Below are positions 10,101 to 26,668 of a DNA stretch of 64,000 bases, piece by piece. The stretch's first letter is position 1, and each line of letters begins with the position of its first letter. Origin of the DNA: Marinobacterium sediminicola (lineage in GTDB: Bacteria > Pseudomonadota > Gammaproteobacteria > Pseudomonadales > Balneatricaceae); NCBI RefSeq assembly GCF_022343685.1, contig NZ_CP092123.1, positions 2,170,001 to 2,234,000 on the forward strand, in the 5' to 3' direction. A program made the translations under genes and the position numbers. The notes under the pieces were generated by a model, which was given only the letters and a program-made list of their open reading frames with translations, did not search any database and was not told the DNA's origin.

Positions 10101-11429
10101 TCAGACCTTGATCCATCCCTGATTTTGCATCCAGAGCGCCAGGCGTCTGCCGTTGTCATCCCCGAGACTGTCCGCGAGCACCTCATCAGCCGTTCGGTCC
10201 GACTCGGCTCGCACAGCCTCCAGCAAGGGAGCCAATGGCAGGCCATTCAGATGCCAGATGCCCAGTGGCTGATCAGGCGTAATCACGACCGGGGCCTCTG
10301 TGATCACTCCGTCTTGCACTACGGGACGCATACCGATGCTGACCTGATCCGGTGTGACTTCAAGATGCAACGGCTGGCTATCGGGCCACTGGCTTCGTTC
10401 CTGCCAGAAAGGTCGTAGCGGCCATTGGGTTTCCTGGGCATAAAAGTCGCGCCCGATACGGGCAAAACGGTAGAACAGTCCCTCGATGCGCGCCTCGTGA
10501 AAGGCCTTGGCCAGTTCGGCACGTTCCGGGTGCCTGATCAGGGTGTTCACCACGGCAGGGGCCTGCAGCGCCGAAGACAGCGCCTGGAAAATACCGTTGC
10601 CGGAAAGCGGGTCCACTGCCATGGCGGCATCGCCCACCCGAATCCAGCTGTCACCGGCACTGTGTTCACAGAGTACGGGGGTACTGGTACGCGCATACAC
10701 GTCACCGGCCGGTTCCGCCCCCTCGATGAACGGCTGTGCCTGCTCCAGCTGTTCAAGCCGCGCGCGGCACCAGTCACCCAGTTCACGCTTGGGCGGCAGG
10801 TTGGCACTGGCCACGTCCAAGGTCAGCTGCAGGTAACGACGACCGTCATTGCGCATCGCCATCCAGGCCCAGCCATCCTCAAAGCTCTGCACGGCCGAAC
10901 GCGACTCTGCCTGCGGTCCTTGCCAATATTGCAGCAGGGATACCGTCTGTGCACCCTTGACTCGGGGCACCCCGGCCGCCGGGGCCGCTCGCCCTCGAGC
11001 TTCCACCAGAAAGCTCGCAGACAGCTGCTGTTCACCACCTTCAGCCAGCGCCACCTCGGCAATATGCCTGCTGCCTTCTGCCTGGCAAGTCTTGACCCGA
11101 CCCTGGATCACCTGCACGCCTTGCTCAGAAAGATCCACAAGCAAGGCTTGATCGAAACGCTGACGGGGCACCAGACGCTCCGTATTGGCTGCGCTGGTCA
11201 CGCCGTTCCACGTCACCTGACGCGGCGACGGATCAGCCATTTCATTCAGTGCGATATTGAACCCGGCTCCCTTCATTCCCTGAATGACACGGTCAGAAAT
11301 GCCTTCAACCGCATCGAAAGGACGCGGTTCTCCGATCAGTGTGACGCTGTACCCAAGACGGCGCAGCCCGATAGCAACGGCGCCACCGGCGGGACCGCCC
11401 CCCAGAACCAGAACATCGGACTCAATCAT
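10101..11429 (-). CDS. qhpG: QhpG, FAD-dependent monooxygenase for CTQ cofactor formation
   Basis: A 442-residue FAD protein of the tryptophan-halogenase/hydroxylase type. It has the dinucleotide loop VLGGGPAGGAVAIGL at the N-terminus and DAAMAVDPLSGNGI where the flavin ribityl chain binds. In QHNDH biosynthesis, QhpG adds two hydroxyl oxygens to a specific tryptophan of the crosslinked gamma subunit, the precursor of cysteine tryptophylquinone. Its assignment rests on the fold and on its place at the end of an intact qhpADCBFEG order. ATG at 11427-11429 has GAGGAGG five bases upstream and overlaps the qhpE stop by 8 bases, indicating translational coupling. Confidence 0.85.
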   Translation of the reverse strand: MIESDVLVLGGGPAGGAVAIGLRRLGYSVTLIGEPRPFDAVEGISDRVIQGMKGAGFNIALNEMADPSPRQVTWNGVTSAANTERLVPRQRFDQALLVDLSEQGVQVIQGRVKTCQAEGSRHIAEVALAEGGEQQLSASFLVEARGRAAPAAGVPRVKGAQTVSLLQYWQGPQAESRSAVQSFEDGWAWMAMRNDGRRYLQLTLDVASANLPPKRELGDWCRARLEQLEQAQPFIEGAEPAGDVYARTSTPVLCEHSAGDSWIRVGDAAMAVDPLSGNGIFQALSSALQAPAVVNTLIRHPERAELAKAFHEARIEGLFYRFARIGRDFYAQETQWPLRPFWQERSQWPDSQPLHLEVTPDQVSIGMRPVVQDGVITEAPVVITPDQPLGIWHLNGLPLAPLLEAVRAESDRTADEVLADSLGDDNGRRLALWMQNQGWIKV

Positions 11430-12108
11430 CAGCACCTCCTCTGCGCTCAGGACCATGATAAAGGGATTGAGCAATCAACCACTGCCGGGCTGAACTCAGG
11501 TTTGGGGCATCTGTCTGGCTCAGATAACGTGCCAGATGAGCGCTCAGATGCGCACATCCCAGGCTGGCACCCGACTGTCCGACACTGTCATCCAACGGTC
11601 GGACGCAGGCACCGAAATCGGCAAACTCGGTTTCGAGATGGGAGATCTGTTCACGCTCACAGCGGGCATCGCCGGTCATCCGAAAAACACCAGGGTAACC
11701 GGAGGGAAACACCGGCTCACCTCGCGCCGGGCTGGCAGCACAGAGAATGACTCCCTTCTGCAGCGCACGTGCGCAGGCCTCGCGCAGGGAATCACGGTCA
11801 TGGCGCAGCCCCAGACTCAGGTTGATCACCTGTGCCCCCTGATCAACCAGCCAGTCGATTGCTGCAGCCACCTGTGCCGCCGTGGTCGTGAAGCGATCAT
11901 GAAAGACCTGTGCCGACAGCACTTCGGCCTGGGGCGCGAGCTGCTGGATGATGTCGATGATGCGGCTGCCGTGCCCAATACGGTCGGGTTCGGCCTCGGC
12001 CATCCAGAGCTGACTGTCGGCCAGCACGAAAGCGGCGCTCTCGCTCACCTGCTGCGCGTCAGAGCAGCCAGAGTCCACGACACCAATGCGAATGGTCTCA
12101 ACCGACAT
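11422..12108 (-). CDS. qhpE: QhpE, subtilisin-like protease that removes the QhpC leader
   Basis: A 228-residue subtilase without a signal peptide, consistent with cytoplasmic action. The triad is visible: Asp12 in GVVDSG, His46 in RIGHGSRI, and Ser in SGASLGCAHLSAH near the C-terminus. VINLSLG is the substrate-binding strand. At about 230 residues it is shorter than secreted subtilisins, as expected for QhpE. In the known pathway it cuts the leader from the crosslinked gamma subunit. ATG at 12106-12108 has AGGAGG six bases upstream. It overlaps the end of qhpF by 11 bases and qhpG by 8. Confidence 0.87.
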   Translation of the reverse strand: MSVETIRIGVVDSGCSDAQQVSESAAFVLADSQLWMAEAEPDRIGHGSRIIDIIQQLAPQAEVLSAQVFHDRFTTTAAQVAAAIDWLVDQGAQVINLSLGLRHDRDSLREACARALQKGVILCAASPARGEPVFPSGYPGVFRMTGDARCEREQISHLETEFADFGACVRPLDDSVGQSGASLGCAHLSAHLARYLSQTDAPNLSSARQWLIAQSLYHGPERRGGADD

Positions 12109-13825
12109 CAGCCACCTCCTCAACCTCCCTCAAGTGACCATTCTGCAACAGCAGGCGCAGATCGGCCCCGGCCAGCGTGGAGGGGCGATGGCTGATCAGA
12201 ATACGGGTTCGGTCGGCAAAGAGCCTGTCGACCGCTGCGATCACCTGCTGTTCAGTGGCTTCATCCACCGCCGACGTGGCTTCATCGAGCACCAGTACGG
12301 CCGGCTGTTGCAACAGGGCACGGGCGATCGCAATTCGCTGTTTCTGGCCACCCGAGAGCTGCTGCCCCCTTTCACCCAGCGGAGTATCCAGACCCTGGGG
12401 CATACGCTCGATAAGCTCTTCCAGCTGAGCCTCACGTGCCGCCTCACGCACCTGTTCATCGGTCGCTTCAGGACAGGCATAACGCAGGTTATCTGCCAGT
12501 GAGCCTCGGAACAGGGTAATTTCTTGGGACACTACTGCCACGCTGCGACGCAAATCAGACAGCCCCAGCTCGCGGATATCCACACCATCCAGCAGCACAC
12601 GTCCCTCTGCGGGATCATAGTGGCGCTGCAACAGATCGATCAGGGTCGACTTGCCCGCTCCTGATGCCCCTGCCAACGCAATCTTCTGTCCGGCGGGCAG
12701 CAAGACACTGACCCTGTTCAGCACGGGGTCGCGGTCCGCGTAGGCGAAGCTGATACCCTCCAGTTGCAGCTCGCCCTTGAGAGGCTGCGGCAAAGGCCTG
12801 GGTTCGGCCGGCGAGTCAATATCGGCATCCGTCAGGCGCAAATCGCTGACCCGGTTCAGACTGACACTCATCCGCTGGATGGCGACATAAAGCCCCAGCA
12901 GGCTGTTGACCGGCCCGGTGGCCATGCCCAGATAGGTAGAGAAGGCGATCAGCGACCCCAGCTGCCATTGCCCCTGAATCACCCACCAGCCTCCGATCAG
13001 AAAGGCGGTGGCACGGGTCATGGAGGTCAGAGTGCCGGGAATGGCATGGGTAAAGAATTCGGTCACCTGAAGCTTCAGTAGCTGATCCAGGTAGTTGTCG
13101 TTGAGCCCTCCCAGACGTTTGCGCTCACGCCCCTCCTGACCGCTGGACTGGATGAACTTCATCGCCGGCAGGGTTTCAACCAGAAAGCTGGACAGGTCCG
13201 CCGAACGTTCTCGCATTTCACGGGTACGCACCTCCACCTTGCGCCGCATCCAGCGCAGCCAGACCACCTCCAGCGGAATCAGTACCAGCACCAGCAGCGA
13301 CAGTTTCCAGGACAGCGTCACCAGCAGTACCAGCGCACCCACCAGGCCGATAATGCTGCTGACCGCCGAAAACAGGCTGTCGACGGCAAAACGCTGGATT
13401 TCGGCCACATCGCCATCGATGCGCGACAGCAGATCGCCGATGCGGCGGCCACCGAAGAAGGACGGTGACAAGCGTTGCAGATGTGCGTAGAGGTCGGTTC
13501 GCAGGGCAAACAGAATGCGACCGGACAGTCGTGTATGCAAATAACGGTTAACCCCTGAAAGGGCCGTCCCCAGAATACCCACCAGCACCATCGCCACGGC
13601 CAGCTGTATCAGCATGCCATAATCCTTGGCGATCAAACCTTCATCGATCAGCAACTTGGTCAGCCAGGGCTGCAGCAACACCAGTGCCGAACCGATAAAT
13701 GACAGGCCAAGCAGCCCGGCAATTGCTCTCTTCTGGGGTTTGACGAAGCTGTACAACCAGCGAAATCCCTGCTCCAGACGACTGCGATCAGGAGCATGAA
13801 TCGCGCGCACCAGCCAGTTCAACAT
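12098..13825 (-). CDS. qhpF: QhpF, ABC exporter (fused membrane and ATPase domains)
   Basis: A 575-residue half-transporter. An N-terminal six-helix membrane domain occupies roughly residues 35-320. The ATPase follows with Walker A GASGAGKST, the signature LSGGQKQRIAIARALL, and Walker B VLVLDEATSAVDEATE. It belongs to the MsbA/peptide-exporter class and would work as a homodimer. In the QHNDH pathway QhpF is proposed to move the processed gamma subunit to the periplasm, since QhpC has no Sec signal. It lies 105 bases downstream of qhpB, past a clear terminator hairpin, and overlaps qhpE. Confidence 0.88.
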   Translation of the reverse strand: MLNWLVRAIHAPDRSRLEQGFRWLYSFVKPQKRAIAGLLGLSFIGSALVLLQPWLTKLLIDEGLIAKDYGMLIQLAVAMVLVGILGTALSGVNRYLHTRLSGRILFALRTDLYAHLQRLSPSFFGGRRIGDLLSRIDGDVAEIQRFAVDSLFSAVSSIIGLVGALVLLVTLSWKLSLLVLVLIPLEVVWLRWMRRKVEVRTREMRERSADLSSFLVETLPAMKFIQSSGQEGRERKRLGGLNDNYLDQLLKLQVTEFFTHAIPGTLTSMTRATAFLIGGWWVIQGQWQLGSLIAFSTYLGMATGPVNSLLGLYVAIQRMSVSLNRVSDLRLTDADIDSPAEPRPLPQPLKGELQLEGISFAYADRDPVLNRVSVLLPAGQKIALAGASGAGKSTLIDLLQRHYDPAEGRVLLDGVDIRELGLSDLRRSVAVVSQEITLFRGSLADNLRYACPEATDEQVREAAREAQLEELIERMPQGLDTPLGERGQQLSGGQKQRIAIARALLQQPAVLVLDEATSAVDEATEQQVIAAVDRLFADRTRILISHRPSTLAGADLRLLLQNGHLREVEEVADVG

Positions 13826-13929: not shown

Positions 13930-15048
13930 TCAATCCCTGATGGTGGCCACACGCAGGTCGGATGTGGTCATGTCACCGGTCAGCTGGATGGAGCCGATCT
14001 TCTCCAGCGTATCGGAATCATGGATCGAGATATCGCTGCTGGTGCCGCCTACATAGATGGTCTTGCCATCACCCGAGATGTTCAGGTTGTAGTAGGTGTG
14101 CGGCATCTCATAGACCGCGAGGGTTTTGTTCTCACTGATATCGTGCTTGGACAGCGTATTGAAGCTGCCGTACAGGATATTGGAATCACGCGGGTCAGTG
14201 ATGAAGTTGAAGATGATGAATTCGAACGGAATCGTCTCCATGCGCTCAGCTTCACCGGTTGCCAGATCCACGCGACTCATGCCCCACCACCACTCGGCGG
14301 TTTCGAAGTTCCACTCTTCAGAATCGAACTTGGCTGTGATGTACGGCATGATGTACTCGTTTGCCTGCTCACCCTGGGAGTGCATGGCAAAGGCATCAGG
14401 CGGCAACCACAGCGGACCTTTTTCCCAGTTGGCCAGCTTGGTGACAACACGGGTTTCGCCATTCTGCGGGTTGATTGCCTTGACGTCGGCACCGCCCAGA
14501 ATCACTTCGCCCTTCTCGGTCGCAGCAATCTTGGTGATACGACGATCCACCGGGAAAGTGCGTACCGGCTTGGCATTCAGGCCATCTTCGATGTTGAACA
14601 CGGCCAGACGCGGTTCCATGACCTCAAAACGGTCACGATGTTTCTTGATCGGGTTCTGCACGGTGTACAGTTCCTTGCCGTCAGCGCTGACCGCTACCGA
14701 CTGGAACGACTTCACCTGAATGGTGGGCGTCGACTGTACGGCGCTGAAGGTCATTTCGCAGTTACGGATATCGAAACCGTAAATATCTTCCCAGTTGTTA
14801 CCCAGCACGTAGGCATGAGTACCATCCTTGGACACGGCCATGGCGCCGGAGCCAAACGGTCCCGGGATATCACAGGTGCGTGCGATCTTGTTGGTGCTCA
14901 TGTCGATCACGTGCAGCTGGTTCGGACGGGTCACCGTCAGCAGGTACTCCTGGTCGGCCATGGCCGTGGGTGCAACTGCTGACAAAGCGCTACCCAGCGC
15001 CAGGGAGCCGACGAGTCCGGCTGACTTAAACAGCTTGTTCAATTTCAT
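13930..15048 (-). CDS. qhpB: QhpB, QHNDH beta subunit (periplasmic beta-propeller)
   Basis: A 372-residue protein with a Sec signal peptide ending near APTAMA (about residue 31). The mature part has repeating propeller blades of the YVTN kind (QEYLLTVTRPNQLHVIDMS, VSKDGTHAYVLGNNW, ISGDGKTIYVGGTSSDISIHD). The QHNDH beta subunit is a seven-bladed propeller that helps form the active site over the gamma subunit. ATG at 15046-15048 has AGGAGT about eight bases upstream; the qhpC stop lies 13 bases before it. Upstream in-frame codons encode no conserved sequence and would leave the signal peptide internal. Confidence 0.92.
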   Translation of the reverse strand: MKLNKLFKSAGLVGSLALGSALSAVAPTAMADQEYLLTVTRPNQLHVIDMSTNKIARTCDIPGPFGSGAMAVSKDGTHAYVLGNNWEDIYGFDIRNCEMTFSAVQSTPTIQVKSFQSVAVSADGKELYTVQNPIKKHRDRFEVMEPRLAVFNIEDGLNAKPVRTFPVDRRITKIAATEKGEVILGGADVKAINPQNGETRVVTKLANWEKGPLWLPPDAFAMHSQGEQANEYIMPYITAKFDSEEWNFETAEWWWGMSRVDLATGEAERMETIPFEFIIFNFITDPRDSNILYGSFNTLSKHDISENKTLAVYEMPHTYYNLNISGDGKTIYVGGTSSDISIHDSDTLEKIGSIQLTGDMTTSDLRVATIRD

Positions 15049-15061
15049 TACCAGACTCCTG

Positions 15062-15385
15062 TTACTCAGCATCCTCGAAAATACCATCCAGCTTGCGCCA
15101 GTCCTTGTCGGCCTTCGCCACACCGTCACCCCACTCGGGATAGGTGTTCATGGTGTCCGGAACCTGTGCCGGCCACCAGCAGGCATCGGCGCAACCATAG
15201 AGGTCGGATTCCATCGGCTGGCAGAGCGAGCCCAGACCACCGAAGGGGTCCAGTTCCCAACCCGGGTCAGTGGTGGCAGTACAGCCCACCACAGTCTGCA
15301 TGGCGACCACGTCTTCAACTTCTTCCGGGCTGACCGCTTTGTTGATCAGCTGTGCTTTCTTGTTCAGAGACTTCAGATGTTTCAT
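15062..15385 (-). CDS. qhpC: QhpC, QHNDH gamma subunit precursor carrying the CTQ and thioether sites
   Basis: A 107-residue precursor. Numbering from the ATG at 15383-15385, residues 1-28 are the cytoplasmic leader. The mature part has four cysteines whose spacing fits the known Pseudomonas and Paracoccus subunits exactly: thioethers Cys35-Glu44, Cys55-Asp61 and Cys69-Asp77, and the quinone pair Cys65-Trp71. There is no Sec signal, in line with export by QhpF. The start sits one base after the qhpD stop; AGGAGG inside the end of qhpD is its ribosome-binding site. A GTG nine bases earlier is too close to that site. Confidence 0.96.
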
Positions 15386-15386
15386 A

Positions 15387-16817
15387 TCAGGCACTCCTCC
15401 TGGGAGAGACGTATGCTTCGAAGAACCCGGGGTTCTCGAGCATGATCCGCGAATACACTTCCACGCCGAAATCGACCCAGTCTCGCATCAGGTCACAGTA
15501 GTGGTAGGAAGGATGCGTCGGATCTCCATATTTGGCGTAACTTTCGTGGTAGCAACCACCCGAACAGAGATTTCGAATACGGCAGGTTTCACAACCGGTG
15601 TTACTGCGGTCCAGACGCTTCTCGACAAACTGGCCCAGGCTGACCTTGTCGATGCCGTTTTCCACATCACCGAAGGTCGGCAGGTCAGAGCCGGTGAAAC
15701 GATGACAGAGGTTTAGCCCCCCATCCTTGTCCACCGCCAGCAGACCGATACCGGCACCGCAAGGCACCAGTTTCTTGTTGCCTTCGTACATGTCGGTGAT
15801 CAGCTGGTGCATGTTGCCGTAACCGAAGTTTGCATTGCGCAGTGCGGCTTCCAGATAACGCTTGCCCAGACGCTTCATGCCTGCAAACACCTCGACCAGT
15901 TCTTCACCAGTGAGGTTGAATTCGGCAATGTCACCGGACGTCACCGGACCGAAACCGACTTCAAAGAAGCCCAGCTCGTTGTAGAGGTGATCAAAGATCG
16001 TTTCTACATCAGTGATGCCCCGGGTCAGGGTCACGCGACAGCCGACAGGACGCGCGGTATAGCGCTTGAGCAGCATGTCCACCTTACGCTTGACCACATC
16101 GTAGGTGCCCTGGCCGCCCACCGTAATCCGGTTCTTGTCGTGCATCGCCTTGGGCCCATCCATTGAGATGGTCAGACCGAAACGGTGCGCGTTGAACCAG
16201 TCCACCAGCTCCTCGGTAAGCAGGGTGGCGTTGGTGGTCATGGTGAAATCAACGGTTGCCTCCAGATCCGCGAAACGTTTTTCGCAGTACGCCACAACCT
16301 CACGAATGAGGGGCATGTTGGACAGGGGCTCACCGCCAAAAAACACCACGTTGTAGGCAGGCTGTCCCGGCGACTCCTTCAGCAGCATCTCGACCGACTT
16401 GATGGCTGTGTCGTAGGCCATCTTCTCCCCTTTTGAGGGCGTCGTCAGGTCTTCCTTGTAGCAGTAGGTGCAGCTGAGGTTGCAGCCGGTGTTGACGTTC
16501 AGCACAACGGTGTTGAGCGGAAACTTCTCCACCTTCTGCGGGTCCGGGTTAATGCGAGCAACGATCCCTGCGTCGGAGATCACCTCCAGGGTTCGCAGCT
16601 CATCCAGCACTTCGTTAACCGCATCCTGCGAATAGCGCGCCCGGAGTTCGGCCAGATGCTCAGGCAACACCTGATCATGGCGATCGAACACCTGCAGCAG
16701 CTCACGGCCCAGCTCATCGAGCTCAAAGATACTGCTGCTGGGAATGTGAAACAGCATCTGCCGTGCATCGACATCGACACGGTGCAGATTCGGTTTCACT
16801 AGCGTCATGGCGCCCAT
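15387..16817 (-). CDS. qhpD: QhpD, radical-SAM SPASM enzyme forming thioether crosslinks in QhpC
   Basis: A 476-residue enzyme. The radical-SAM cluster motif CNLSCTYC is at Cys112, Cys116 and Cys119, followed by FFGGEPL for SAM binding. The C-terminal SPASM region supplies further cysteines ([19 protein letters not shown] and [14 protein letters not shown]) for auxiliary Fe-S clusters. The first roughly 90 residues form a RiPP-recognition-like domain that would hold the QhpC leader. QhpD installs the intrapeptidyl Cys-to-Asp/Glu thioether bonds. ATG at 16815-16817 has AGAGGTGA upstream; GTG two codons earlier is an alternative. Spacing to qhpA is 54 bases. Confidence 0.95.
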
Positions 16818-16871
16818 ATTCACCTCTTTGTTGTTCTGTTGGGTGGCTACTTGTTCAGGTTTGATTCGGGC

Positions 16872-18476
16872 TTAATCCAGTACGCGACGGACAAAATCCT
16901 GCACCGCTACCAGCATGCTGCCTTCGCCTTCGACCTGGGTACTACCGTCAGCAACGGTTGCCACAACAGTCAGACGACCGACATTGTTGGCCGACATTTT
17001 GCGTTCCGGGTTAAGGCCCGCATCACCAGGTGTGAAGATACCTGCGGCATTGAAGCTGCCAGCGTACTTGTCATCCTTGTCATGAGCCGCCACTTCGTCA
17101 GCCGGCTTGATGCTCCAGCTGGCAGGCATGTAACCCAGACGCAGATCGTCCTCGGTACCCGGCTTGCCATCAGCACCGGCGCTGTAGCCTACTGCACGAT
17201 AGGAGGCACGAACTTTCGGCAGATTACCGCCGGCACCACCGATACGGGTCACCGCATTGGCCGGCGTCACGTCGACACGCGCCAGCTCGCTGTATACAGC
17301 CAAAGCAGACTCGCTTGCGGCCTGTCCAACACGGACGGTTCGCAGACCTTCATTGCCGGTGGCTTTGGCCAGCACAGTGATACGATCATCGGCGCGAGAC
17401 AGTACCTTCTCGACTACAACCCCTTCGCCAAGGTTGATGTCACCTTTCAGATTCTGTCCGATCAGGGTCAGCTCTGCCGGTTCACCCGCACGCAGATAGG
17501 ACGGCTGAACCGCCACCACCGCAGCCTTACCCTGATCACGCACAGCACTCAGCTCACCGCCGATTTCGCGCTCAGCCGCAACAAACATACGGCCTTCCAG
17601 ACTGTTGCCCTGCTTGTCTGCTGCCATGACCTGACGCATTTTCACACCATCGATGGTCAGGCTGGCTCGCCATTCATAGCCGGTGTATACAGTTGCCTTG
17701 CCTTCACCGTTGAGCGCGGTTCCATCGGCATACAGACCTTCAAGCGTTACGTCGTAATGGCCTTCGGAGGTCTTGGCGGCGGTCATCCAGGCATCAAATT
17801 CGCCCTTGCCCGGAACGAAGCCGGTCACGCGCCAGCGACCCATCAGATCGCTTTTGCTGGCCTTCTGCCAGTTGTTCCATTCCTGAGTAATCAGCGGGAA
17901 ACGCTTGCCAAGATCAGCGGCAGTATCGTTGCTGGCGATCTGGTACCACTGGCGGTCACGTGCCAGGGAGTGCAGTTCGGTGGTCGGGAACTGCCCCATG
18001 TGGAAGTCGACCAGGTATTTCCATTCCTGCTCAGTGCGGCGCTGCAAGGCAAAACGCGCCTCGGAGTGACAGCGGCCACAGGTTTCAGCCAGCCCCTGAT
18101 CAATGCTGTTCTCAACCAGGTTGGTATCCTGCTCGAGCAGATAGCGATAGCCTTCTGTCTCTTCAGGTGCCAGACCCTGGGTGTCAGCCAGATGCTTGAC
18201 CAGTGCGCGTTTTTCTTCGCGGGTCAGTTCAAGGCCACGCAGGTGAGTCATGCGGTTGATCGTCATCAACCAGCCTTCAGGGGTTTTACGCTGCTCGCTG
18301 ATGCGTGAGAAGCTTGGCGCTTCGGCCGAACCGGTCTCGGTATGACAGGCCAGGCAGCGGTCCCGGATGATCTGTTGTGCGTCCTGAGCCAGCACCGGTG
18401 TGCTGACAAGCCCGGCCAGAGCCAGAAGGCCCGTACCCAGAGCTGCACGCTTCGAATTATTATTACTCAATGCCAT
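16872..18476 (-). CDS. qhpA: QhpA, QHNDH alpha subunit (di-haem cytochrome c)
   Basis: A 534-residue periplasmic protein with a signal peptide ending at VLA-Q (residue 30). Two c-type haem motifs are visible, CLACH (41-45) and CGRCH (133-137), in an N-terminal di-haem domain. The remaining 350 residues are the beta-rich domains typical of the alpha subunit. It receives electrons from the CTQ cofactor during primary-amine oxidation and hands them to an external acceptor. It is the first gene of the operon. ATG at 18474-18476 is preferred over the GTG directly before it. Upstream lie a possible extended -10 and four decamers that suit control by the divergent response regulator. Confidence 0.95.
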   Translation of the reverse strand: MALSNNNSKRAALGTGLLALAGLVSTPVLAQDAQQIIRDRCLACHTETGSAEAPSFSRISEQRKTPEGWLMTINRMTHLRGLELTREEKRALVKHLADTQGLAPEETEGYRYLLEQDTNLVENSIDQGLAETCGRCHSEARFALQRRTEQEWKYLVDFHMGQFPTTELHSLARDRQWYQIASNDTAADLGKRFPLITQEWNNWQKASKSDLMGRWRVTGFVPGKGEFDAWMTAAKTSEGHYDVTLEGLYADGTALNGEGKATVYTGYEWRASLTIDGVKMRQVMAADKQGNSLEGRMFVAAEREIGGELSAVRDQGKAAVVAVQPSYLRAGEPAELTLIGQNLKGDINLGEGVVVEKVLSRADDRITVLAKATGNEGLRTVRVGQAASESALAVYSELARVDVTPANAVTRIGGAGGNLPKVRASYRAVGYSAGADGKPGTEDDLRLGYMPASWSIKPADEVAAHDKDDKYAGSFNAAGIFTPGDAGLNPERKMSANNVGRLTVVATVADGSTQVEGEGSMLVAVQDFVRRVLD

Positions 18477-18568
18477 CACTCCCTCACTGATGAGATGGAT
18501 CTTGTTGTTCGCCCAAGTGCCAAAACGGCACTATGGCTCAGCCCAAATCGGTGCTTGTCGCTAAGCTA

Positions 18569-18598: not shown

Positions 18599-18638
18599 TT
18601 GTGCTAAGTTGTGCTCAGATGTAACAGAATGTAAAAAG
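18599..18638. repeat. Four tandem decamers in the qhpA / response-regulator promoter region
   Basis: The plus strand reads TTGTGCTAAG, TTGTGCTCAG, ATGTAACAGA, ATGTAAAAAG without gaps. The first two differ at one base, as two related pairs of half-sites one helical turn apart. OmpR-family regulators bind such direct repeats head to tail. The divergent gene at 18731 encodes exactly that type of regulator, so this is its probable operator; binding is inferred. Confidence 0.55.
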
Positions 18639-18730: not shown

Positions 18731-19465
18731 ATGAAGACCACACCCGCTGACATTCACATCCTCATCGTGGAAGACGATCTGGCCTCACGGTCACTGCTCG
18801 TCAGTTACTTCGAGAACGCAGGCTATCGTGTCTCGGAAACGGACAACGCGGACCATCTGGCCGAACGAATCGATCAGGATGCGGTGGATCTGGTGCTGCT
18901 CGATATCAGTCTGCCCGGCAAGGACGGCCTCACCGTAACCCGTGAACTCAGAGCCAACTCGGCCGTTGGCATCATTCTAGTGACCAGCAAGGGGGACGAG
19001 ATCGACCGCATTGTGGGGCTGGAGCTGGGTGCCGACGATTACGTCACCAAGCCTTTCAATCCACGCGAGCTGCTCGTCCGGGCAAAGAACCTGCTTTGGC
19101 GCATGTTCATTGCCGACACCGCCAAGCGGAATGGTGAAAGCCGTAGCCAGATGATCTACTCCTTTGAAGGCTGGCAACTGGACCCTTACAAACGTCAGCT
19201 GACCAGCCCGGAAGGCCACCACGAGCGCCTGCCGGAAGGCGAGTTCAAGCTGCTGCAAACGCTGGTCAACCATCCCGGTCAGGTGCTGTCACGCGATCAG
19301 CTGATGGATGCCATCCATGACCGTGAATGGACGCCCAACGACCGCTCGGTAGACGTACTGATCGGCCGCCTGAGACGCAAACTGGGTGACAACCCGTCCA
19401 ATCCCCAGTTGATCCTGACCGCCCACGGCGCCGGCTACATGTTTGCCGGCAACACTGGCTCATGA
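18731..19465 (+). CDS. OmpR/PhoB-family response regulator, likely controls the qhp operon
   Basis: A 244-residue two-domain regulator. The receiver has the acidic pair Glu14-Asp15-Asp16 and phosphoacceptor Asp58 in LLDISLPG, plus the lysine in YVTKPF. The C-terminal winged helix carries GEFKLLQTLVNHPGQVLSR and RSVDVLIGRLRRKLGD. It resembles TorR-like regulators. Its stop overlaps the start of the hybrid kinase by four bases (ATGA), so the two are translationally coupled. It is divergent from qhpA across a 254-base region holding tandem decamers. In Paracoccus the qhp operon uses an AraC-type QhpR; none is adjacent here, making this pair the best candidate. Confidence 0.93.
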   Translation: MKTTPADIHILIVEDDLASRSLLVSYFENAGYRVSETDNADHLAERIDQDAVDLVLLDISLPGKDGLTVTRELRANSAVGIILVTSKGDEIDRIVGLELGADDYVTKPFNPRELLVRAKNLLWRMFIADTAKRNGESRSQMIYSFEGWQLDPYKRQLTSPEGHHERLPEGEFKLLQTLVNHPGQVLSRDQLMDAIHDREWTPNDRSVDVLIGRLRRKLGDNPSNPQLILTAHGAGYMFAGNTGS

Positions 19466-22400
19466 AAGCCCCCGAAGGCTATCGTCTTTACCGCCAGCTG
19501 CACCGCTCCGGTGACTGTCGCATCAGCCGCGCCGTGCGGCTGCAGGATGGCTCTGACGTCATCATCAAACAGCTTGATCGCAGTCAGTGCAGCCGCGGTC
19601 GGCTGAGCCGCTTTCAACACGAGTTTGATATCCTTTCGCGCCTGCGCATCAGTGGGGTTATCGAACCCTTTGAGTTGCTCCAGCTGGAGACTGGGCCCGC
19701 GATTATCTATTCGGACTCAGGCTCCCGTCCGCTGCGTCAGCTGATCGCAGAACAACAGCTCTCCTGGCCCCAATGGCTGCCGATCGCCATCCGTATCAGT
19801 GAACTGCTCGGCCGTCTGCACGAAGCGGGTATTACCCATAAGCAGATCAACCCTGATCATCTGTTGCTGAATCCCGATACCGGGATGGTCGAGCTCATCG
19901 GCTTTTCACGCAGCACCGGCCTGAGTCGTGAACAGGCGAACTGGCATACGCCAGACTTTGGCCGTGAAGGGCTGGCCTATATCGCTCCGGAGCAGACAGG
20001 GCGCATCAACCGCAGCATCGACTACCGCAGCGATTATTACAGCCTCGGTGCCACCCTGTATGAGCTGATGACCGGCCGCCCGCCCTTCACCAGTGATGAT
20101 GGCATGAGTCTGGTGCATGACCAGATTGCCAAACAGCCCAAAGCCCCCCACCTGATCAACCCCCAACTGCCGGAAATGCTGTCACTGGTGATCCTCAAGC
20201 TGCTCTCCAAGGATGCGGCACAGCGCTACCAGTCCAGCGTCGGGCTGATCCATGACCTGCAGCTATGCCTGCGTGCGCAGCTACGCCAGGAGTATGACCT
20301 GCGTTTTCAACCTGGCCAGCGTGACCTGTCTGCTCGCTTCCAGATACCGCAGCGACTCTACGGTCGCCAGCCTCTGCTGGCACAGTTGCGCGAGCAATAT
20401 CGCAGCTGTGGCCGCGGCGGACAGCCACTGGTGTTGATCACCGGTTATGCCGGTGTCGGCAAGACCAGCCTGGTCAACGAATTGCGTCAGTACGTCAACG
20501 AACAAGGGGGCAGCTTCAACGCCGGCAAATTTGATCAGTTTCGCCGCAGTCGCCCCTACTTCGCGATCGTTCAGGCCCTCCAGGGACTGGTTCGCCAACT
20601 GCTGACCGAACCTGAAGAACGCATCGCCCGCTGGCGCAAGCGGCTGGTCGACAACCTGGGCAGTCACGCTCAGGTGCTGGTCAAGCTGATTCCCGAACTG
20701 GAGCTGATCATCGGCAATCAGCCCATACTGCCCCCCTTGCCGCCGGCTGAAGAGCAGAATCGGTTTTCACGCATTTTCATCCAGATGCTGCGTGTGCTGG
20801 CGACCCCGAATCGCCCGCTGGTACTGTTTCTGGATGACCTGCACTGGGCCGACCTCGCCTCGCTGCACCTGATCGAAACGCTGGTCAGTGTCAGTGCCCC
20901 ACCGGGGTTGATGCTGATCGGCAGTTATCGTGATCATGAGTTGAGCGCGACCCATCCGCTGCGCACCGCTCTGGAGCGCCTTCAGCACAATGGTCAGGCA
21001 CCGCTGGAGATCAGCCTCCACCCCTTGCAACTGCCCGAAGTCAACCAGCTGGTCGCTGACACCCTGCGCGTCGAGCCTCTGGCCTGTCGGTCTCTGGCAC
21101 AGGCCTGTATGGAAAAGACCCAGGGCAACCCCTTCTTCCTGAATCAGTTCCTGCATGCTCTGCATCAGGATGGTCTTATCACCTTCCGCGAGCAGCGCTG
21201 GCAGTGGGATGAGGATGCAATACGTGATCAGGAGATCACCGATAATGTGATCGAGTTGATGGTCAGCAAGATTCAACGCCTGCCTGCTGCCACTCAGCAG
21301 GTATTGCCGCTGGCCGCCTGTATCGGCAGCAGTTTCAACCTGCGCACCCTGTCCGTGGTCAGCGAACTGCAGCCACGCGCGGCCACCGACCGGCTCTGGC
21401 CGGCACTGACCGAAGGCTTGATCGTGCCTCAGGATGACAGCTACCGGCTGTTTCAGAACCTCGAACCGGAGCGCACCCGTTTTCGCTTCGTACATGACCG
21501 GGTGCAGCAGGCAGCCTACTCATTGATCGAAGATGACACGCTGGAAGAGCTGCACTTGCAGATCGGTCGTCAGTTGCAGCAAAGCCTGCAGCCAGATGAG
21601 ATCGATAACCGTATCTTCGAGATCAGCAACCATCTCAATCAGGCGCAGAAGCGCCTGTCGTCGGACGAGGAGAGACTGCAACTGGCTCGGCTCAATCTTC
21701 GTGCCGGTCAAAAGGCGAAAGAGTCAGCCGCATTTGACTCTGCAATGGAATACCTGAATACGGGCCTGAGTCTGTTGCCGGCGAACGGCTGGCTGCATGA
21801 CTACAACCTCGCACTGGAACTGCACACGACTGCGGCGGAAATCGCCAACATCAAGGGACAGCATGAACTCATGCTGACGCTGATCCGCACCGTCGAAGCG
21901 CATGCGTCCCAGCTGCTCGACCGTATCAGGGTGTATGAAATCCTGATCCAGTCGCAGGTAGCCAACAACGCTTTCCACCAGGCGTTGCAGACAGCGCAAC
22001 TGGCACTGCAGCAGCTGGGCGTCAATATCCCGGCCAAGCCGCGTGACAGCCAACTGGCCTACGGACTTGCCCGTACCCAGTGGATGCTGCGCCGGATGAC
22101 ACCGGAAAAAATTCTTCAGCTGCCCAAAATGAAGGACCCCGAGCTGCTGGCCGCAATGCCGATCCTCGCCAGCATGTTCGGTGCCATCAAGTTTTCCAGC
22201 TCGGAGCTTCGCCCGCTGGTGATGGCACGCCAGGTCGAACTGACGCTAAAACACGGGCTCAACCCCTCTGCCGCCATGGCGTTTGCGGGATATGGTGGTG
22301 TTCTCTGCGGTCAATTCAACGCCATCGAGCAGGGCTACCGTCTGGGCAAGCTGGCTTTGCAACTGGACCAGCAGATGCCCTCGGTGCTGACCCATCACCG

Positions 22401-25400
22401 CACCCTGTCCCTGTTCAACAGTTACATTCGCCATTATCGCGAACCCCTGCGTAACTGCATGGAATCCCTGCTCAACGCCCATCAACTGGGGCTGGATGCC
22501 GGTGACATGGAATGGAGTGCCTATGCACTGGCGGCCTATATCCAGTATGCCTTTCCGCTGTGCCGCAACCTGGACGAGCTGCAGCCGAGACTTGAGCAAT
22601 ATGCCGCACTGCTGGAAGAATCTGGACAACAGCAGTCACTGCAGTACTCCCAGTTCGTCCTGCAAACCATGGAAAATCTGCGCGGTCACAGCGCGGACCC
22701 GACCAGATTCGACGGCCGCTTCTATCATGAAGAACGCAACCTGGCCGAATTGAAACGGGAAAACCACCGTACCGCCATCAGCCTGCATCATTTCTATAAA
22801 AGTCTGCTCTGCTATCTGTTCGGTGACTACGCCGGCGCACTGCGTCACAGTGATGCAGGCATGGAGCTGCGCGCTTCCATCAGCGGTACACTCACTGTGC
22901 CCTGGTTACAACAGCTCAACGCACTCAGCATTCTGGCTCAGCTGCCGCATACCAGCATCCTGCAGCAACCGGCACGCCTGCAGAAGGTCCGTCAAACCCT
23001 TCGCGCCTTGCGCAAGCTGGCACGTTACTCACCGGAAAACCACCGACATCATGCCGACCTTCTGGAAGCGGAGCTCTATCGCAGTCAGCACCAGCACACC
23101 AAGGCGATGGACCTTTATGAGCAAGCGATCGAGCAGGCTCGCCAGCAGGGTTTCATTCTGGACGAAGCCATGGCCACCGAGCTTGCAGGCCAGTTCTACC
23201 TGGAATGGGACAAACCCGGAATCGCCCGCACCTACCTGCAGGACGCCTATGAGCGCTATGCAGACTGGGGCGGTCGAGCCAAACTCGAACAAATGCAGGA
23301 ACGCTACCCGTTCACTCTGGAGCGTCCTCTGCGTCACTTTGATGATAATCAGCCCAAAGAGTCTCCGGCCCTGAGCCAGACGCTGGACAACCAGGCCTTC
23401 GACATCAACTCGGTAATCCACTCGTCTCAGGCCATCTCCGATGAGATCGTGCTGGAAAGGCTGCTTGAACGACTCATGCAGCTGGCGCTGCAGAACGCCG
23501 GGGCCCAGCGTGCCATTCTCATCCTGCGCCGTCATCAGGGCCTTTTTCTGGAAGCGGAGATCTGTCTCAATCAGCCACCTCGTCTGTTCAATGCCCAACC
23601 GCTGGAGCAAAGCGAGGCACTACTGCCGCTGAGCATCATCAATTACGTGGCACGCACCAAAGAGGACGTGGTACTGGGCAATGCCACGGAACATCAAATG
23701 TTCCAGCAGGATAGCTACATCCGTGAGCATCAGCCTCGCTCCCTGCTGGCGATCCCGATTCTCTACCATGGCGAGCTCACCGCCATTCTCTATCTCGAGC
23801 ACTCGGAAAGCCGTGACATCTTCAATCGAGACCGACTCAAGACCCTGCAGATTCTCGCTTCTCAGGCTGCCATCTCGATCGAGAACGCCAAGCTCTATCA
23901 AAGCCTGGAACAGTCCGAACGGGAGTACCGCTCACTGTTTGAAAACTCCAGCGAGGGGATCTTCCGCATCGACCGCCGTGGCCGCTTCATATCGGCAAAT
24001 CCGGCACTGGTAAAGCTGCTGGGCTATCCCAGCGCTGACGCGTTTCTGAGCACCGTAACCGATGTCATCCGGGACTGCTTCGTGGATCGGGAAGAGTGCC
24101 GTCAATTCCTCGCACGGCTTAACCGAGATGAGCGCGTACTGGGATTTGAAACCCGCTGGCGCCGCCGCAACGGCAGTGAGGTCAGCATTTCGATCTCGGC
24201 TCATCGCATCACCGATGAACAACAGAATCTTCGCTACTACGAAGGCTCGCTGACGGATATCAGTGAGCGTAAAGCCAAGGAACAGGCCGAGCTGGCACGG
24301 GAAAAGGCCGAGGCCGCCAGTGAGGCCAAAAGTCAGTTTCTGGCGACCATGAGCCACGAAATTCGTACCCCGATGAATGGTATCCTGGGGATGGCTCAGC
24401 TGCTGATGCGCTCTGGACTCAGCACTGCACAACAGGAACAGGTGGATTCCATTTACCGCTCCGGCCAGACCCTGCTGAGCATTCTTAATGACGTGCTCGA
24501 TTTTACCAAGATCGAGGCCGGTCAGATGGAGCTGGAGCAGGTGGAGTTCAGCCTGCATGAACAACTCGAACAGCTGCGCCAGCTGCTGACACCGATGACC
24601 CAGGAAAAACACCTGGACCTGATCCTGCGACTGGACCCCGAGCTGCCCGATCGGGTCTGCGGTGATCCCCGGGCTCTGAACCAGATCCTGCTGAACCTCT
24701 GCACCAATGCACTCAAATTCACCCATGAAGGCTATGTACTGGTGAAAGTTCGCCCGCTGATGTCCGAGGGGGATGATCAGTGCCGTGTTCACTTTGAAGT
24801 TGAAGACACCGGCATCGGCATTCCCGAATCGGCTCACTCGCGCATTTTCATGCATTTCAGCCAGGCAGACAGCTCCATCACGCGCCGATTCGGTGGCACT
24901 GGCCTGGGCCTGTCAATCTGCAAGCGGCTGGTGGAGCTTCAGGACGGTGAGATCGGCTTTGACAGCCAGCCGGGAAAAGGCAGCCGCTTCTGGGTGGAGC
25001 TGCAATACCCCCTTGCCAGACAGGCAGAAAATCACACATCCGTCTCGCATCTTCGCGAGGAAGGCGGCAAGCCGCGACTGGATATTCTGCTGGTGGAAGA
25101 TACCCCGATCAATCAGCAGGTCACGGTAGGTCTGCTGGAGTCGGAAGGCCACAGCGTCAGCGTTGCAGACGATGGCTACACTGCGCTTTCGATGCACAAC
25201 GATCATGACTACGATCTGGTACTGATGGATATTCACTTGCCCGACATGGACGGGATCGAAACCTCTCGTCGCATGCGTCAGCACCCTGACCCGTCTCGGG
25301 CAGCTGTTCGCATCATTGCCCTGACCGCATCGGTCACGCCGACAGAGATCCGTCGCTATCAGGAAGCCGGGATGGATGCAGTCGTCAGCAAGCCGTTGCA

Positions 25401-25845
25401 GTTCGACGAACTCAACCGCCTGCTCCGACAGCAACCGATGATGGATCAAACGACCAGTCCGGTGTCTGAAACCTCTGCCACACTGCTCAATCAAACCCTG
25501 CTCGACCAGCACCTTGGCATGCTAGGACATGAACGGTTCCATAGTTTGTGCCAACAGATGCAGGCCCAATGCTTCGAACTGCTGGAACAATTGGGAGAAG
25601 CCCTTCCTGACCAGCAGCCCCCGTTACTGCATAAGCTGGCAGGCACGCTCAGCAACTTCGGTATGCAACAAGCTGCTGAACTGAGCCGGGAGCTGGAGCT
25701 ACGCCCCACACGATCCATGGAAACGATGGACAGGTTGCAACAGCTCTGCCGGCTGAGTCTGAGCGAACTGCAACGGCGTTACGGCCTGGGCGCTAATCCA
25801 GCTGACGAACCAAAGGTTCCAGCCAGCGGTAGTCCTCATCACTGA
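19462..25845 (+). CDS. Giant hybrid sensor kinase: pseudokinase-AAA-TPR-GAF-PAS-HisKA-HATPase-REC-HPt
   Basis: A 2127-residue soluble signalling protein with no clear membrane segment. Residues 1-270 form a Ser/Thr-kinase-like domain. A P-loop ATPase follows (GYAGVGKTS from residue 328; Walker B FLDDLHWAD with Asp458-459), then a long helical TPR-like region to about 1290, a GAF domain (about 1310-1480), a PAS domain (about 1490-1610), HisKA with His1632 in TMSHEIRTPMNG, an HATPase (NLCTNALKFT, DTGIGIP, GGTGLGLS), a receiver with Asp1923 in LMDIHLPDMDG, and a C-terminal HPt-like segment with His2057 in LLHKLAGTLSNFG. The kinase-like domain is degenerate: HKQINPDHLLL replaces the HRD loop (Gln128 for the catalytic Asp) and GFS (147-149) replaces DFG. 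It probably phosphorylates the upstream response regulator through a relay. It overlaps the convergent binding-protein gene by 53 bases. Confidence 0.93.
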   Translation: MKAPEGYRLYRQLHRSGDCRISRAVRLQDGSDVIIKQLDRSQCSRGRLSRFQHEFDILSRLRISGVIEPFELLQLETGPAIIYSDSGSRPLRQLIAEQQLSWPQWLPIAIRISELLGRLHEAGITHKQINPDHLLLNPDTGMVELIGFSRSTGLSREQANWHTPDFGREGLAYIAPEQTGRINRSIDYRSDYYSLGATLYELMTGRPPFTSDDGMSLVHDQIAKQPKAPHLINPQLPEMLSLVILKLLSKDAAQRYQSSVGLIHDLQLCLRAQLRQEYDLRFQPGQRDLSARFQIPQRLYGRQPLLAQLREQYRSCGRGGQPLVLITGYAGVGKTSLVNELRQYVNEQGGSFNAGKFDQFRRSRPYFAIVQALQGLVRQLLTEPEERIARWRKRLVDNLGSHAQVLVKLIPELELIIGNQPILPPLPPAEEQNRFSRIFIQMLRVLATPNRPLVLFLDDLHWADLASLHLIETLVSVSAPPGLMLIGSYRDHELSATHPLRTALERLQHNGQAPLEISLHPLQLPEVNQLVADTLRVEPLACRSLAQACMEKTQGNPFFLNQFLHALHQDGLITFREQRWQWDEDAIRDQEITDNVIELMVSKIQRLPAATQQVLPLAACIGSSFNLRTLSVVSELQPRAATDRLWPALTEGLIVPQDDSYRLFQNLEPERTRFRFVHDRVQQAAYSLIEDDTLEELHLQIGRQLQQSLQPDEIDNRIFEISNHLNQAQKRLSSDEERLQLARLNLRAGQKAKESAAFDSAMEYLNTGLSLLPANGWLHDYNLALELHTTAAEIANIKGQHELMLTLIRTVEAHASQLLDRIRVYEILIQSQVANNAFHQALQTAQLALQQLGVNIPAKPRDSQLAYGLARTQWMLRRMTPEKILQLPKMKDPELLAAMPILASMFGAIKFSSSELRPLVMARQVELTLKHGLNPSAAMAFAGYGGVLCGQFNAIEQGYRLGKLALQLDQQMPSVLTHHRTLSLFNSYIRHYREPLRNCMESLLNAHQLGLDAGDMEWSAYALAAYIQYAFPLCRNLDELQPRLEQYAALLEESGQQQSLQYSQFVLQTMENLRGHSADPTRFDGRFYHEERNLAELKRENHRTAISLHHFYKSLLCYLFGDYAGALRHSDAGMELRASISGTLTVPWLQQLNALSILAQLPHTSILQQPARLQKVRQTLRALRKLARYSPENHRHHADLLEAELYRSQHQHTKAMDLYEQAIEQARQQGFILDEAMATELAGQFYLEWDKPGIARTYLQDAYERYADWGGRAKLEQMQERYPFTLERPLRHFDDNQPKESPALSQTLDNQAFDINSVIHSSQAISDEIVLERLLERLMQLALQNAGAQRAILILRRHQGLFLEAEICLNQPPRLFNAQPLEQSEALLPLSIINYVARTKEDVVLGNATEHQMFQQDSYIREHQPRSLLAIPILYHGELTAILYLEHSESRDIFNRDRLKTLQILASQAAISIENAKLYQSLEQSEREYRSLFENSSEGIFRIDRRGRFISANPALVKLLGYPSADAFLSTVTDVIRDCFVDREECRQFLARLNRDERVLGFETRWRRRNGSEVSISISAHRITDEQQNLRYYEGSLTDISERKAKEQAELAREKAEAASEAKSQFLATMSHEIRTPMNGILGMAQLLMRSGLSTAQQEQVDSIYRSGQTLLSILNDVLDFTKIEAGQMELEQVEFSLHEQLEQLRQLLTPMTQEKHLDLILRLDPELPDRVCGDPRALNQILLNLCTNALKFTHEGYVLVKVRPLMSEGDDQCRVHFEVEDTGIGIPESAHSRIFMHFSQADSSITRRFGGTGLGLSICKRLVELQDGEIGFDSQPGKGSRFWVELQYPLARQAENHTSVSHLREEGGKPRLDILLVEDTPINQQVTVGLLESEGHSVSVADDGYTALSMHNDHDYDLVLMDIHLPDMDGIETSRRMRQHPDPSRAAVRIIALTASVTPTEIRRYQEAGMDAVVSKPLQFDELNRLLRQQPMMDQTTSPVSETSATLLNQTLLDQHLGMLGHERFHSLCQQMQAQCFELLEQLGEALPDQQPPLLHKLAGTLSNFGMQQAAELSRELELRPTRSMETMDRLQQLCRLSLSELQRRYGLGANPADEPKVPASGSPHH

Positions 25846-26668
25846 CACTCTGCATCCCTACTGCCCCTTTTGTTTCCAGCAGCACTCGACGGGCCGATGA
25901 GGGCGTTAGCAGCACCTGGCGAATCCGTGCCTGAACCTCGGGACACAGATGGCTGCTGACCGTGAACGGATCATAATGGATTGGCCGTGAGCGCCATAGC
26001 TCACGCAGATCCGAGCTGGCCGCCTCTCCACGGCCTATGTAGTCGTCCGCTCTGCGGCTGGATACGAAGGCCGCATCTACCGCCCCGGAAAGTACGGCTT
26101 CAATCGCACGATCATGGGAACCGGCATAGATCAACTTGCCAACATAGTCAGCCAGAACCACACCGGTTTCACGCTTGAACTCAGTCATCGGAATCAACGC
26201 CCCGGAGGTACTGCCGGGGTCGGTCAGCGCCACAGACCTATGCTCTAAATCGTGGATGGACTTGATGTTGACGCCGGTTCCAGTCAGCAGCAGCGAGTGG
26301 TAGTAACTGCCTTCTGGCGTAAATGCTCCCCCTTTGAAGCTGTATGCCGCCAACGCCTGCACCCCGGGGTCTCTGGACTTGGTCTGTATATAGGCAGCAG
26401 GCCCAAGTTCAGCCAGATCAACAGCCCCAGACAACACGCCTTCAATCACCGCCTGGTAGGAGTGAACCGAAACCGTCTGGACCGGGATGCCAAGCACACG
26501 CTGCAGCTCAAGGCGCAGGGGCTCGAACTCCTGATACTGCTGAACCAGACTCTTCTTTGGAATGGTGGCAAAATGCAGCACCTCCGGCTGTTTGCATCCG
26601 GGTTCGGCGATTGCCCACCCTGCTCCAGACAACAACATCACGATCAAAACCCGCACAATCAGTTTCAT
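25793..26668 (-). CDS. PhnD-like periplasmic binding protein coupled to the GGDEF-EAL protein
   Basis: A 291-residue PBP2/PhnD-type protein with a signal peptide (MKLIVRVLIVMLLSGAGWA, then IAEPG). Family features include HFATIPKKSLVQQYQEF near the start, LSGAVDLAELGPAAY in the cleft, and ALTDPGSTSGALIP. Its start overlaps the stop of the GGDEF-EAL gene by four bases (ATGA), so they are made together. No transport genes are nearby. The likely role is to bind a small anion-like ligand in the periplasm and report it to the membrane-bound GGDEF-EAL partner. The 3' end overlaps the convergent hybrid-kinase gene by 53 bases. Confidence 0.82.
   Translation of the reverse strand: MKLIVRVLIVMLLSGAGWAIAEPGCKQPEVLHFATIPKKSLVQQYQEFEPLRLELQRVLGIPVQTVSVHSYQAVIEGVLSGAVDLAELGPAAYIQTKSRDPGVQALAAYSFKGGAFTPEGSYYHSLLLTGTGVNIKSIHDLEHRSVALTDPGSTSGALIPMTEFKRETGVVLADYVGKLIYAGSHDRAIEAVLSGAVDAAFVSSRRADDYIGRGEAASSDLRELWRSRPIHYDPFTVSSHLCPEVQARIRQVLLTPSSARRVLLETKGAVGMQSVSDEDYRWLEPLVRQLD

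Follow-up and report, generated by a model that had tools for sequence, protein, structure and literature searches.

What does a Ser/Thr-kinase domain do in a hybrid sensor once the residues for catalysis have been lost? This question is raised by a gene at 19462-25845 (+) of the window (the whole 64-kb stretch of Marinobacterium sediminicola DNA which was analysed), an intact open reading frame with an ATG startcodon encoding 2127 aa, of which residues 1-270 (19462..20271, +) make up a Ser/Thr-kinase-fold domain according to Pfam, AlphaFold2 and PDB fold matches to PknB. An earlier note had called this domain a pseudokinase on reading HKQINPDHLLL at residues 126-136 (19837-19869) and GFS at residues 147-149 (19900-19908), and both motifs were found exactly as claimed. 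The alignment with M. tuberculosis PknB is free of gaps over the loop (agithkqinpdhlll in the sensor, ngiihrdvkpanili in PknB), and places Q128 at the position of the catalytic Asp and H133 at that of the metal-binding Asn (HKQINPDH, 19837..19860, +), with G147 replacing the metal-binding Asp of the DFG motif (19900..19908, +). The losses at these three sites therefore stand, but the fourth change named in the note, Asn for Lys, does not count as a loss, since Asn as found at residue 130 is the commonest state among 89 relatives which keep the Asp (41 N, 24 K, 11 R). The replacement of the DFG Gly by Ser149 is also seen in 16/89 of these relatives.

The kinase-fold domain is followed by an AAA_16 or STAND-type ATPase domain (residues 298-486, 20353..20919, +, Pfam E 4.4e-40) with intact Walker A (GYAGVGKTS, 20443-20469, +) and Walker B (FLDDLHWAD, 20827-20853, +) motifs. 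Further downstream, Pfam matches identify GAF (1331-1473) and PAS (1488-1600) domains (23452..24261, +), the HisKA and HATPase_c domains with the phospho-acceptor His1632 within MSHEIRTP (24325..25008, +), and a receiver domain with the phospho-acceptor Asp1923 (25084..25422, +). The C-terminal domain is HPt-like, with His2057 within LLHKLAGTL (25504..25776, +), and the alignment to the TorS model TIGR02956 runs as far as residue 2095. Each of the 23 full-length orthologues in the comparison has intact Walker A and B motifs, phospho-His, N box, G boxes, receiver Asp and HPt His, which makes the Ser/Thr-kinase domain the sole enzyme domain of the sensor without its catalytic residues. No transmembrane segment was indicated in the sensor (highest 19-residue hydropathy 1.51). 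At its 3' end the sensor gene has a convergent 53-base overlap with a gene for a PhnD-like substrate-binding protein (25793-26668, -), which in turn adjoins a gene for a GGDEF-EAL protein (26665-29022).

The distribution of the loss was followed in 171 non-redundant kinase-ATPase proteins gathered from GTDB genomes as well as from samples at order and class level, using a tree of the quick kind built from the ATPase region only, in which branches are short within the clade described here and several are long elsewhere. The protein falls in one clade of 36 sequences (SH-aLRT 99), none of which has the catalytic Asp (29 Gln, 5 Lys, 2 Arg), and the state of residue 128 changes only twice inside it. 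Members come from Marinobacterium, Pontibacterium, Amphritea, Neptunomonas, Oceanospirillum and Motiliproteus, together with one Vreelandella, the betaproteobacterium Thauera and others. As reconstructed on this tree, the loss of the Asp is ancestral to the whole clade and not peculiar to the window's protein; it is clade-wide, with the Asp missing in every orthologue aligned. Sequencing error and recent decay were ruled out, as the frame is conserved and none of the orthologues in other genomes has the Asp. Outside the clade, the catalytic Asp is kept in 89/135 proteins, and Lys, Asp and DFG Asp together in 78/135, compared with 19/33 in the class sample, which was drawn with the ATPase domain alone and is thus unbiased by the kinase domain. 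As the Asp/non-Asp state also changes at least 22 times on the ATPase-region tree, the remark in the note that HKD and DFG are usually kept in related proteins is correct for a modest majority only.

The remaining motif changes are nested within the clade. Replacement of the metal-binding Asn by His is restricted to a 17-member subclade (SH-aLRT 96) which includes Thauera, and replacement of the DFG Asp by Gly to 11 members within that subclade (SH-aLRT 89), with the Asn kept in 18/36 clade members and the DFG Asp in 24/36. It follows from this nesting that the catalytic Asp was lost first and the metal ligands later, and in principle the older half of the clade could still bind Mg-ATP, while the window's protein has lost the usual metal ligands. 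Elsewhere on the tree, a separate clade (L026, L029, L141, L145, L161, L214-L216) has VxxE for VxxK, HK[AGS] and GFG or GFS, and looks like an independent pseudokinase lineage. A further lineage (L031, L032, L147, L150, L163, L203-L205, L218) has Gln or Arg for the helix-C Glu, an HK[AGS]-like loop and D[DE] at the DFG position, and is also apparently inactive.

While its catalytic residues have gone, the domain has kept its fold. The Pkinase model PF00069 matches residues 21-258 (E 1.8e-18, with the protein score above the gathering cut-off), an AlphaFold2 model made with 50 relatives is a confident kinase fold (mean pLDDT 91.4, pTM 0.90), and PknB is the closest PDB structure to this model (Foldseek E 4e-20). 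K36, the VxxK lysine equivalent to PKA K72 (19567..19569, +), is kept in 33 of the 35 clade members with this position, and the helix-C glutamate E54, equivalent to PKA E91 (19621..19623, +), in all 35; the note had pointed out the retained fold and the lysine of its VIIK motif, both borne out here, and had passed over the glutamate. Compared with an active Hanks-type kinase, the lysine and the helix-C Glu are thus present, and the equivalents of PKA D166 (catalytic Asp), N171 (metal-binding Asn) and D184 (DFG Asp) are all absent. A two-domain AlphaFold2 model of pseudokinase and ATPase displayed no fixed packing between them, and with a pTM of only 0.58 a fixed docking of the one onto the other was dropped.

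Over seven Marinobacterium orthologues the whole protein has a median omega of 0.15. By domain, omega is lowest in the receiver (0.06), followed by the histidine-kinase core (0.11), the ATPase (0.13), the kinase domain (0.19) and the HPt domain (0.26), all of them rough values because dS is near 1 or higher; judged by these estimates, the kinase domain is clearly under purifying selection. Evolution is fastest in the HPt-like domain (25504-25776), which is 54% identical within the genus at an omega of about 0.26, yet keeps its His. The kinase domain could conceivably be a passive relic, a folding spacer which is heading for loss and has no signalling role, and this would fit both with an omega somewhat above those of the ATPase and the receiver and with the stepwise piling up of motif losses. 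However, a neutral relic is expected to have an omega near 1, and the domain is full-length in all orthologues in which it was readable, has many invariant positions (including E54, H126, P131, APEQ and R255) and is limited to Q, K and R at residue 128 throughout the clade, all of which makes a relic unlikely. The lost equivalents of D166, N171 and D184, the retained fold and the purifying selection together support the designation of the domain as a pseudokinase.

The genomic neighbourhood points to what the sensor may control. Directly upstream lies a gene for a TorR-like response regulator of the OmpR type (18731..19465, +), the end of which overlaps the start of the sensor gene (ATGA); its match to the NCBIfam TorR model is a marginal pass (275.4 bits with a cut-off of 275), and it adjoins the sensor gene in 25/26 orthologous loci. 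Divergent from this pair is a qhp operon, with qhpA for the alpha subunit of quinohemoprotein amine dehydrogenase (16872..18479, -, TIGR03908, 618 bits), qhpD for the radical SAM maturase (15387..16823, -, TIGR03906, 746 bits) and qhpB for the beta subunit (13930..15129, -, TIGR03907, 319 bits), all above the cut-offs of the respective models. Further qhp genes at 10101..13825 (-) were recognised by order and sequence, and their individual functions are predictions: an ABC exporter-like gene (12098-13825, -) and a subtilase-like gene (11422-12123, -) from translation and conserved order, and a flavoprotein monooxygenase-like gene (10101-11474, -) from its translation. A second quinohemoprotein amine dehydrogenase is encoded outside the window (G000:C1:2157495-2159039, -; L220:7472-9133), where it is divergent to an aldehyde dehydrogenase gene and is without a sensor pair; several relatives also have two copies.

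The sensor and TorR-like regulator genes are divergent to the qhp operon in 24 of the 26 loci with long flanks, flank data being short for some genomes, and Thauera is among the 24. The Thauera block, consisting of qhp genes, regulator, sensor and the repeat array described below (L054, L056, L058), is nested in the marine gammaproteobacterial clade, which suggests horizontal transfer. In a set of 22 genomes, qhpA was present in all 16 with a clade member and in none of the six without, and in the wider order sample qhpA was also found without the sensor (9/14 genomes); in the two sensor-less qhp loci examined, a TetR gene adjoins qhpA. As the loss of the Asp and the association with qhp fall on the same branch, they represent one evolutionary event, lend each other no independent support and cannot be called correlated evolution.

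The 251 bp between qhpA and the regulator gene contain a putative operator, formed by four 10-bp direct repeats TTGTGCTAAG TTGTGCTCAG ATGTAACAGA ATGTAAAAAG (18599..18638, +), and this array with its 10-bp period is unique within the window. Using a repeat score built on the window's own sequence, and keeping in mind that close orthologues share the array by descent, 24/25 qhpA-regulator gaps reached a score of at least 23/28, each of them beating nearly all of 300 local shuffles (p ≤0.013), and the remaining one (L038) scored 22. A strict pattern found three arrays in the 3.55-Mb genome itself, and none with the reversed pattern as control. All eight Marinobacterium genomes have the array at qhpA and at least one more, 22-44 kb away; in the genome of the window this second array lies at L235:6839 (+), which is G000:C1:2144838. 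At the six second sites examined, the array is located beside a gene for an outer-membrane channel of the Alginate_exp family and/or the next gene, for an aldehyde dehydrogenase which resembles aminobutyraldehyde and phenylacetaldehyde dehydrogenases. A search for a decamer array at the genome's other amine dehydrogenase copy gave no hit. A third array, present here and in G001 (L236:5419, -; L241:5819, +), lies between genes for ErcA/ErcS-like regulators of alcohol dehydrogenase and a pyridine nucleotide-disulphide oxidoreductase gene.

It could be argued that the sensor-regulator pair has no control over qhp, and that the neighbourhood reflects coincidence or hitch-hiking. The exceptions to the conserved order are in line with this, as the pair of Motiliproteus (L049) has no adjacent qhp operon, and the sensor gene is apart from qhp in G019 and in M. 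litorale (L042). However, the array still precedes qhpA in both G019 and M. litorale, in the latter with the regulator gene also remaining beside qhp, while the Motiliproteus pair adjoins a relative of the channel gene (53% identity), which is the second array target in Marinobacterium and is here again preceded by arrays. Across 34 genomes, strict arrays were present in 11/16 with the sensor and in 1/18 without, the latter a low-complexity tandem repeat (Fisher p 0.0002, with genomes counted without regard to relatedness). An absence of control is thus very unlikely, and the sensor very probably controls the adjacent qhp amine-oxidation genes, as predicted from synteny and the operator-like sequence. 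This evidence concerns the probable targets of the whole protein, and not the binding partner of the pseudokinase.

With regard to catalysis, no straightforward substitute for the missing Asp is seen. The clade-specific D132 (89%, versus 4% in Asp-keeping relatives) was rejected as a plain replacement of the catalytic Asp because it aligns four residues downstream, at the equivalent of PKA Glu170, surviving as a weak rival only. That the domain still uses ATP in a non-canonical way, for instance through SelO-like AMPylation or with D132 acting as a catalytic acid that has moved, would agree with the retention of K36 and E54, with the presence of both metal ligands in the older half of the clade and with D132 being particular to the clade, but is highly improbable given the offset of D132, the degenerate glycine loop and the loss of both metal ligands (H133, G147) in Marinobacterium.

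We favour, with a probability of roughly 0.8, a true CP1-type pseudokinase which is kept for something other than catalysis, as part of a phosphorelay sensor that switches on amine oxidation via the TorR-like regulator. The domain is probably a signalling part rather than an enzyme, because its catalytic loss is old, selection has kept it, and the sensor very probably controls amine oxidation; we infer the lack of phosphotransfer by the domain, the direction of regulation (activation) and the nature of the signal. The soluble sensor would consist of pseudokinase, STAND ATPase, a helical repeat, GAF, PAS, histidine kinase, receiver and HPt, in that order, and an amine, its aldehyde or a cell-state signal would act on one or more of the pseudokinase, ATPase, GAF and PAS domains. 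Following autophosphorylation, the phosphate would pass from His1632 via Asp1923 and His2057 to the adjacent regulator, with the transfers beyond the histidine kinase ordered as in known relays of the TorS type. The regulator would then bind the array of four decamers between the divergent units and turn on the qhp amine dehydrogenase operon, and in Marinobacterium it may also act on the distant operon for the outer-membrane channel and aldehyde dehydrogenase.

The suggestion in the note that the domain became a ligand- or protein-binding sensor is plausible, and the ATPase and histidine kinase may receive input from it, either allosterically or through its binding of a nucleotide or ligand. 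A more specific version, in which the pseudokinase binds a nucleotide (metal-free in Marinobacterium) or the amine or aldehyde and gates the histidine kinase through the STAND ATPase, is put forward tentatively and may well be wrong. If true, bacteria would have their own equivalent of allosteric pseudokinases such as JAK/TYK2 JH2, and one whose transcriptional output can be identified. In this clade a predicted input module and an intact phosphorelay come together with a named regulator, an operator-like sequence and target genes, and its occurrence in culturable marine bacteria means that an uncomplicated assay of induction by amines could address the role of a CP1 pseudokinase. The clade further provides a candidate for the control of amine dehydrogenase genes by a phosphorelay, and a series in which the motifs were lost in order, with Asp first, followed by Asn and then DFG.

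Among known systems, we take the Nostoc-type Ser/Thr-His dual kinases to be the proteins annotated by PGAP as 'trifunctional Ser/Thr kinase/ATP-binding/sensor histidine kinase', with which the sensor shares the kinase-ATPase fusion and, in relatives such as L059, a similar length; the cyanobacterial relatives of this type keep HKD and DF, whereas the sensor's clade does not. The CP1 family, which occurs mainly in cyanobacteria and proteobacteria, combines a Ser/Thr-kinase fold with a predicted ATPase (COG3899), with degraded motifs in about 40% of members, often GAF/FhlA or PAS domains and no transmembrane segment (PMC12599244, O'Boyle et al. 2025). The sensor resembles this description in its kinase fold with degraded motifs, its GAF and PAS domains and the lack of a transmembrane region, and its AAA_16 domain fits the COG3899 ATPase, so that by comparison with the published description the kinase domain likely belongs to CP1; the mixture of Asp and non-Asp states among its relatives also agrees with the published proportion of CP1 pseudokinases (PMC12599244). 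The bacterial pseudokinases of this type were catalogued there and their function not assigned (PMC12599244), and in the literature searched on this protein class and on kinase-COG3899 fusions nothing relevant was found beyond that review. Its CP1 section has no ancestral-loss clade tied to a pathway and no target genes, both of which are proposed here. What is new, as far as the trees and alignments go, is that a single well-supported clade inherited the loss from its ancestor, that it proceeded stepwise with the domain under purifying selection, and that this clade is tied to qhp.

For the output side, the closest comparison is TorS/TorR, which has the same order of HisKA, HATPase, receiver and HPt domains, a regulator to which the one described here is similar, and operators made of 10-bp repeats (putative in our case); enterobacterial TorR binds 10-bp tor boxes CTGTTCATAT, four of which have been described (PMC9239176). 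Unlike TorS, the sensor has no TorS periplasmic sensor, its input consisting of pseudokinase, STAND ATPase, GAF and PAS, and it remains below the cut-off of the TorS model TIGR02956 (429.9 versus 676.5 bits), while the probable targets differ from those of TorS/TorR in being amine-oxidation genes. The qhp genes have a known regulator in QhpR, which is of the AraC type. The qhp operon has been placed under an n-butylamine-inducible transcriptional regulator (PMC7876137), and with the same operon and probably also induction by amines, a two-component phosphorelay appears to replace the one-component regulator here.
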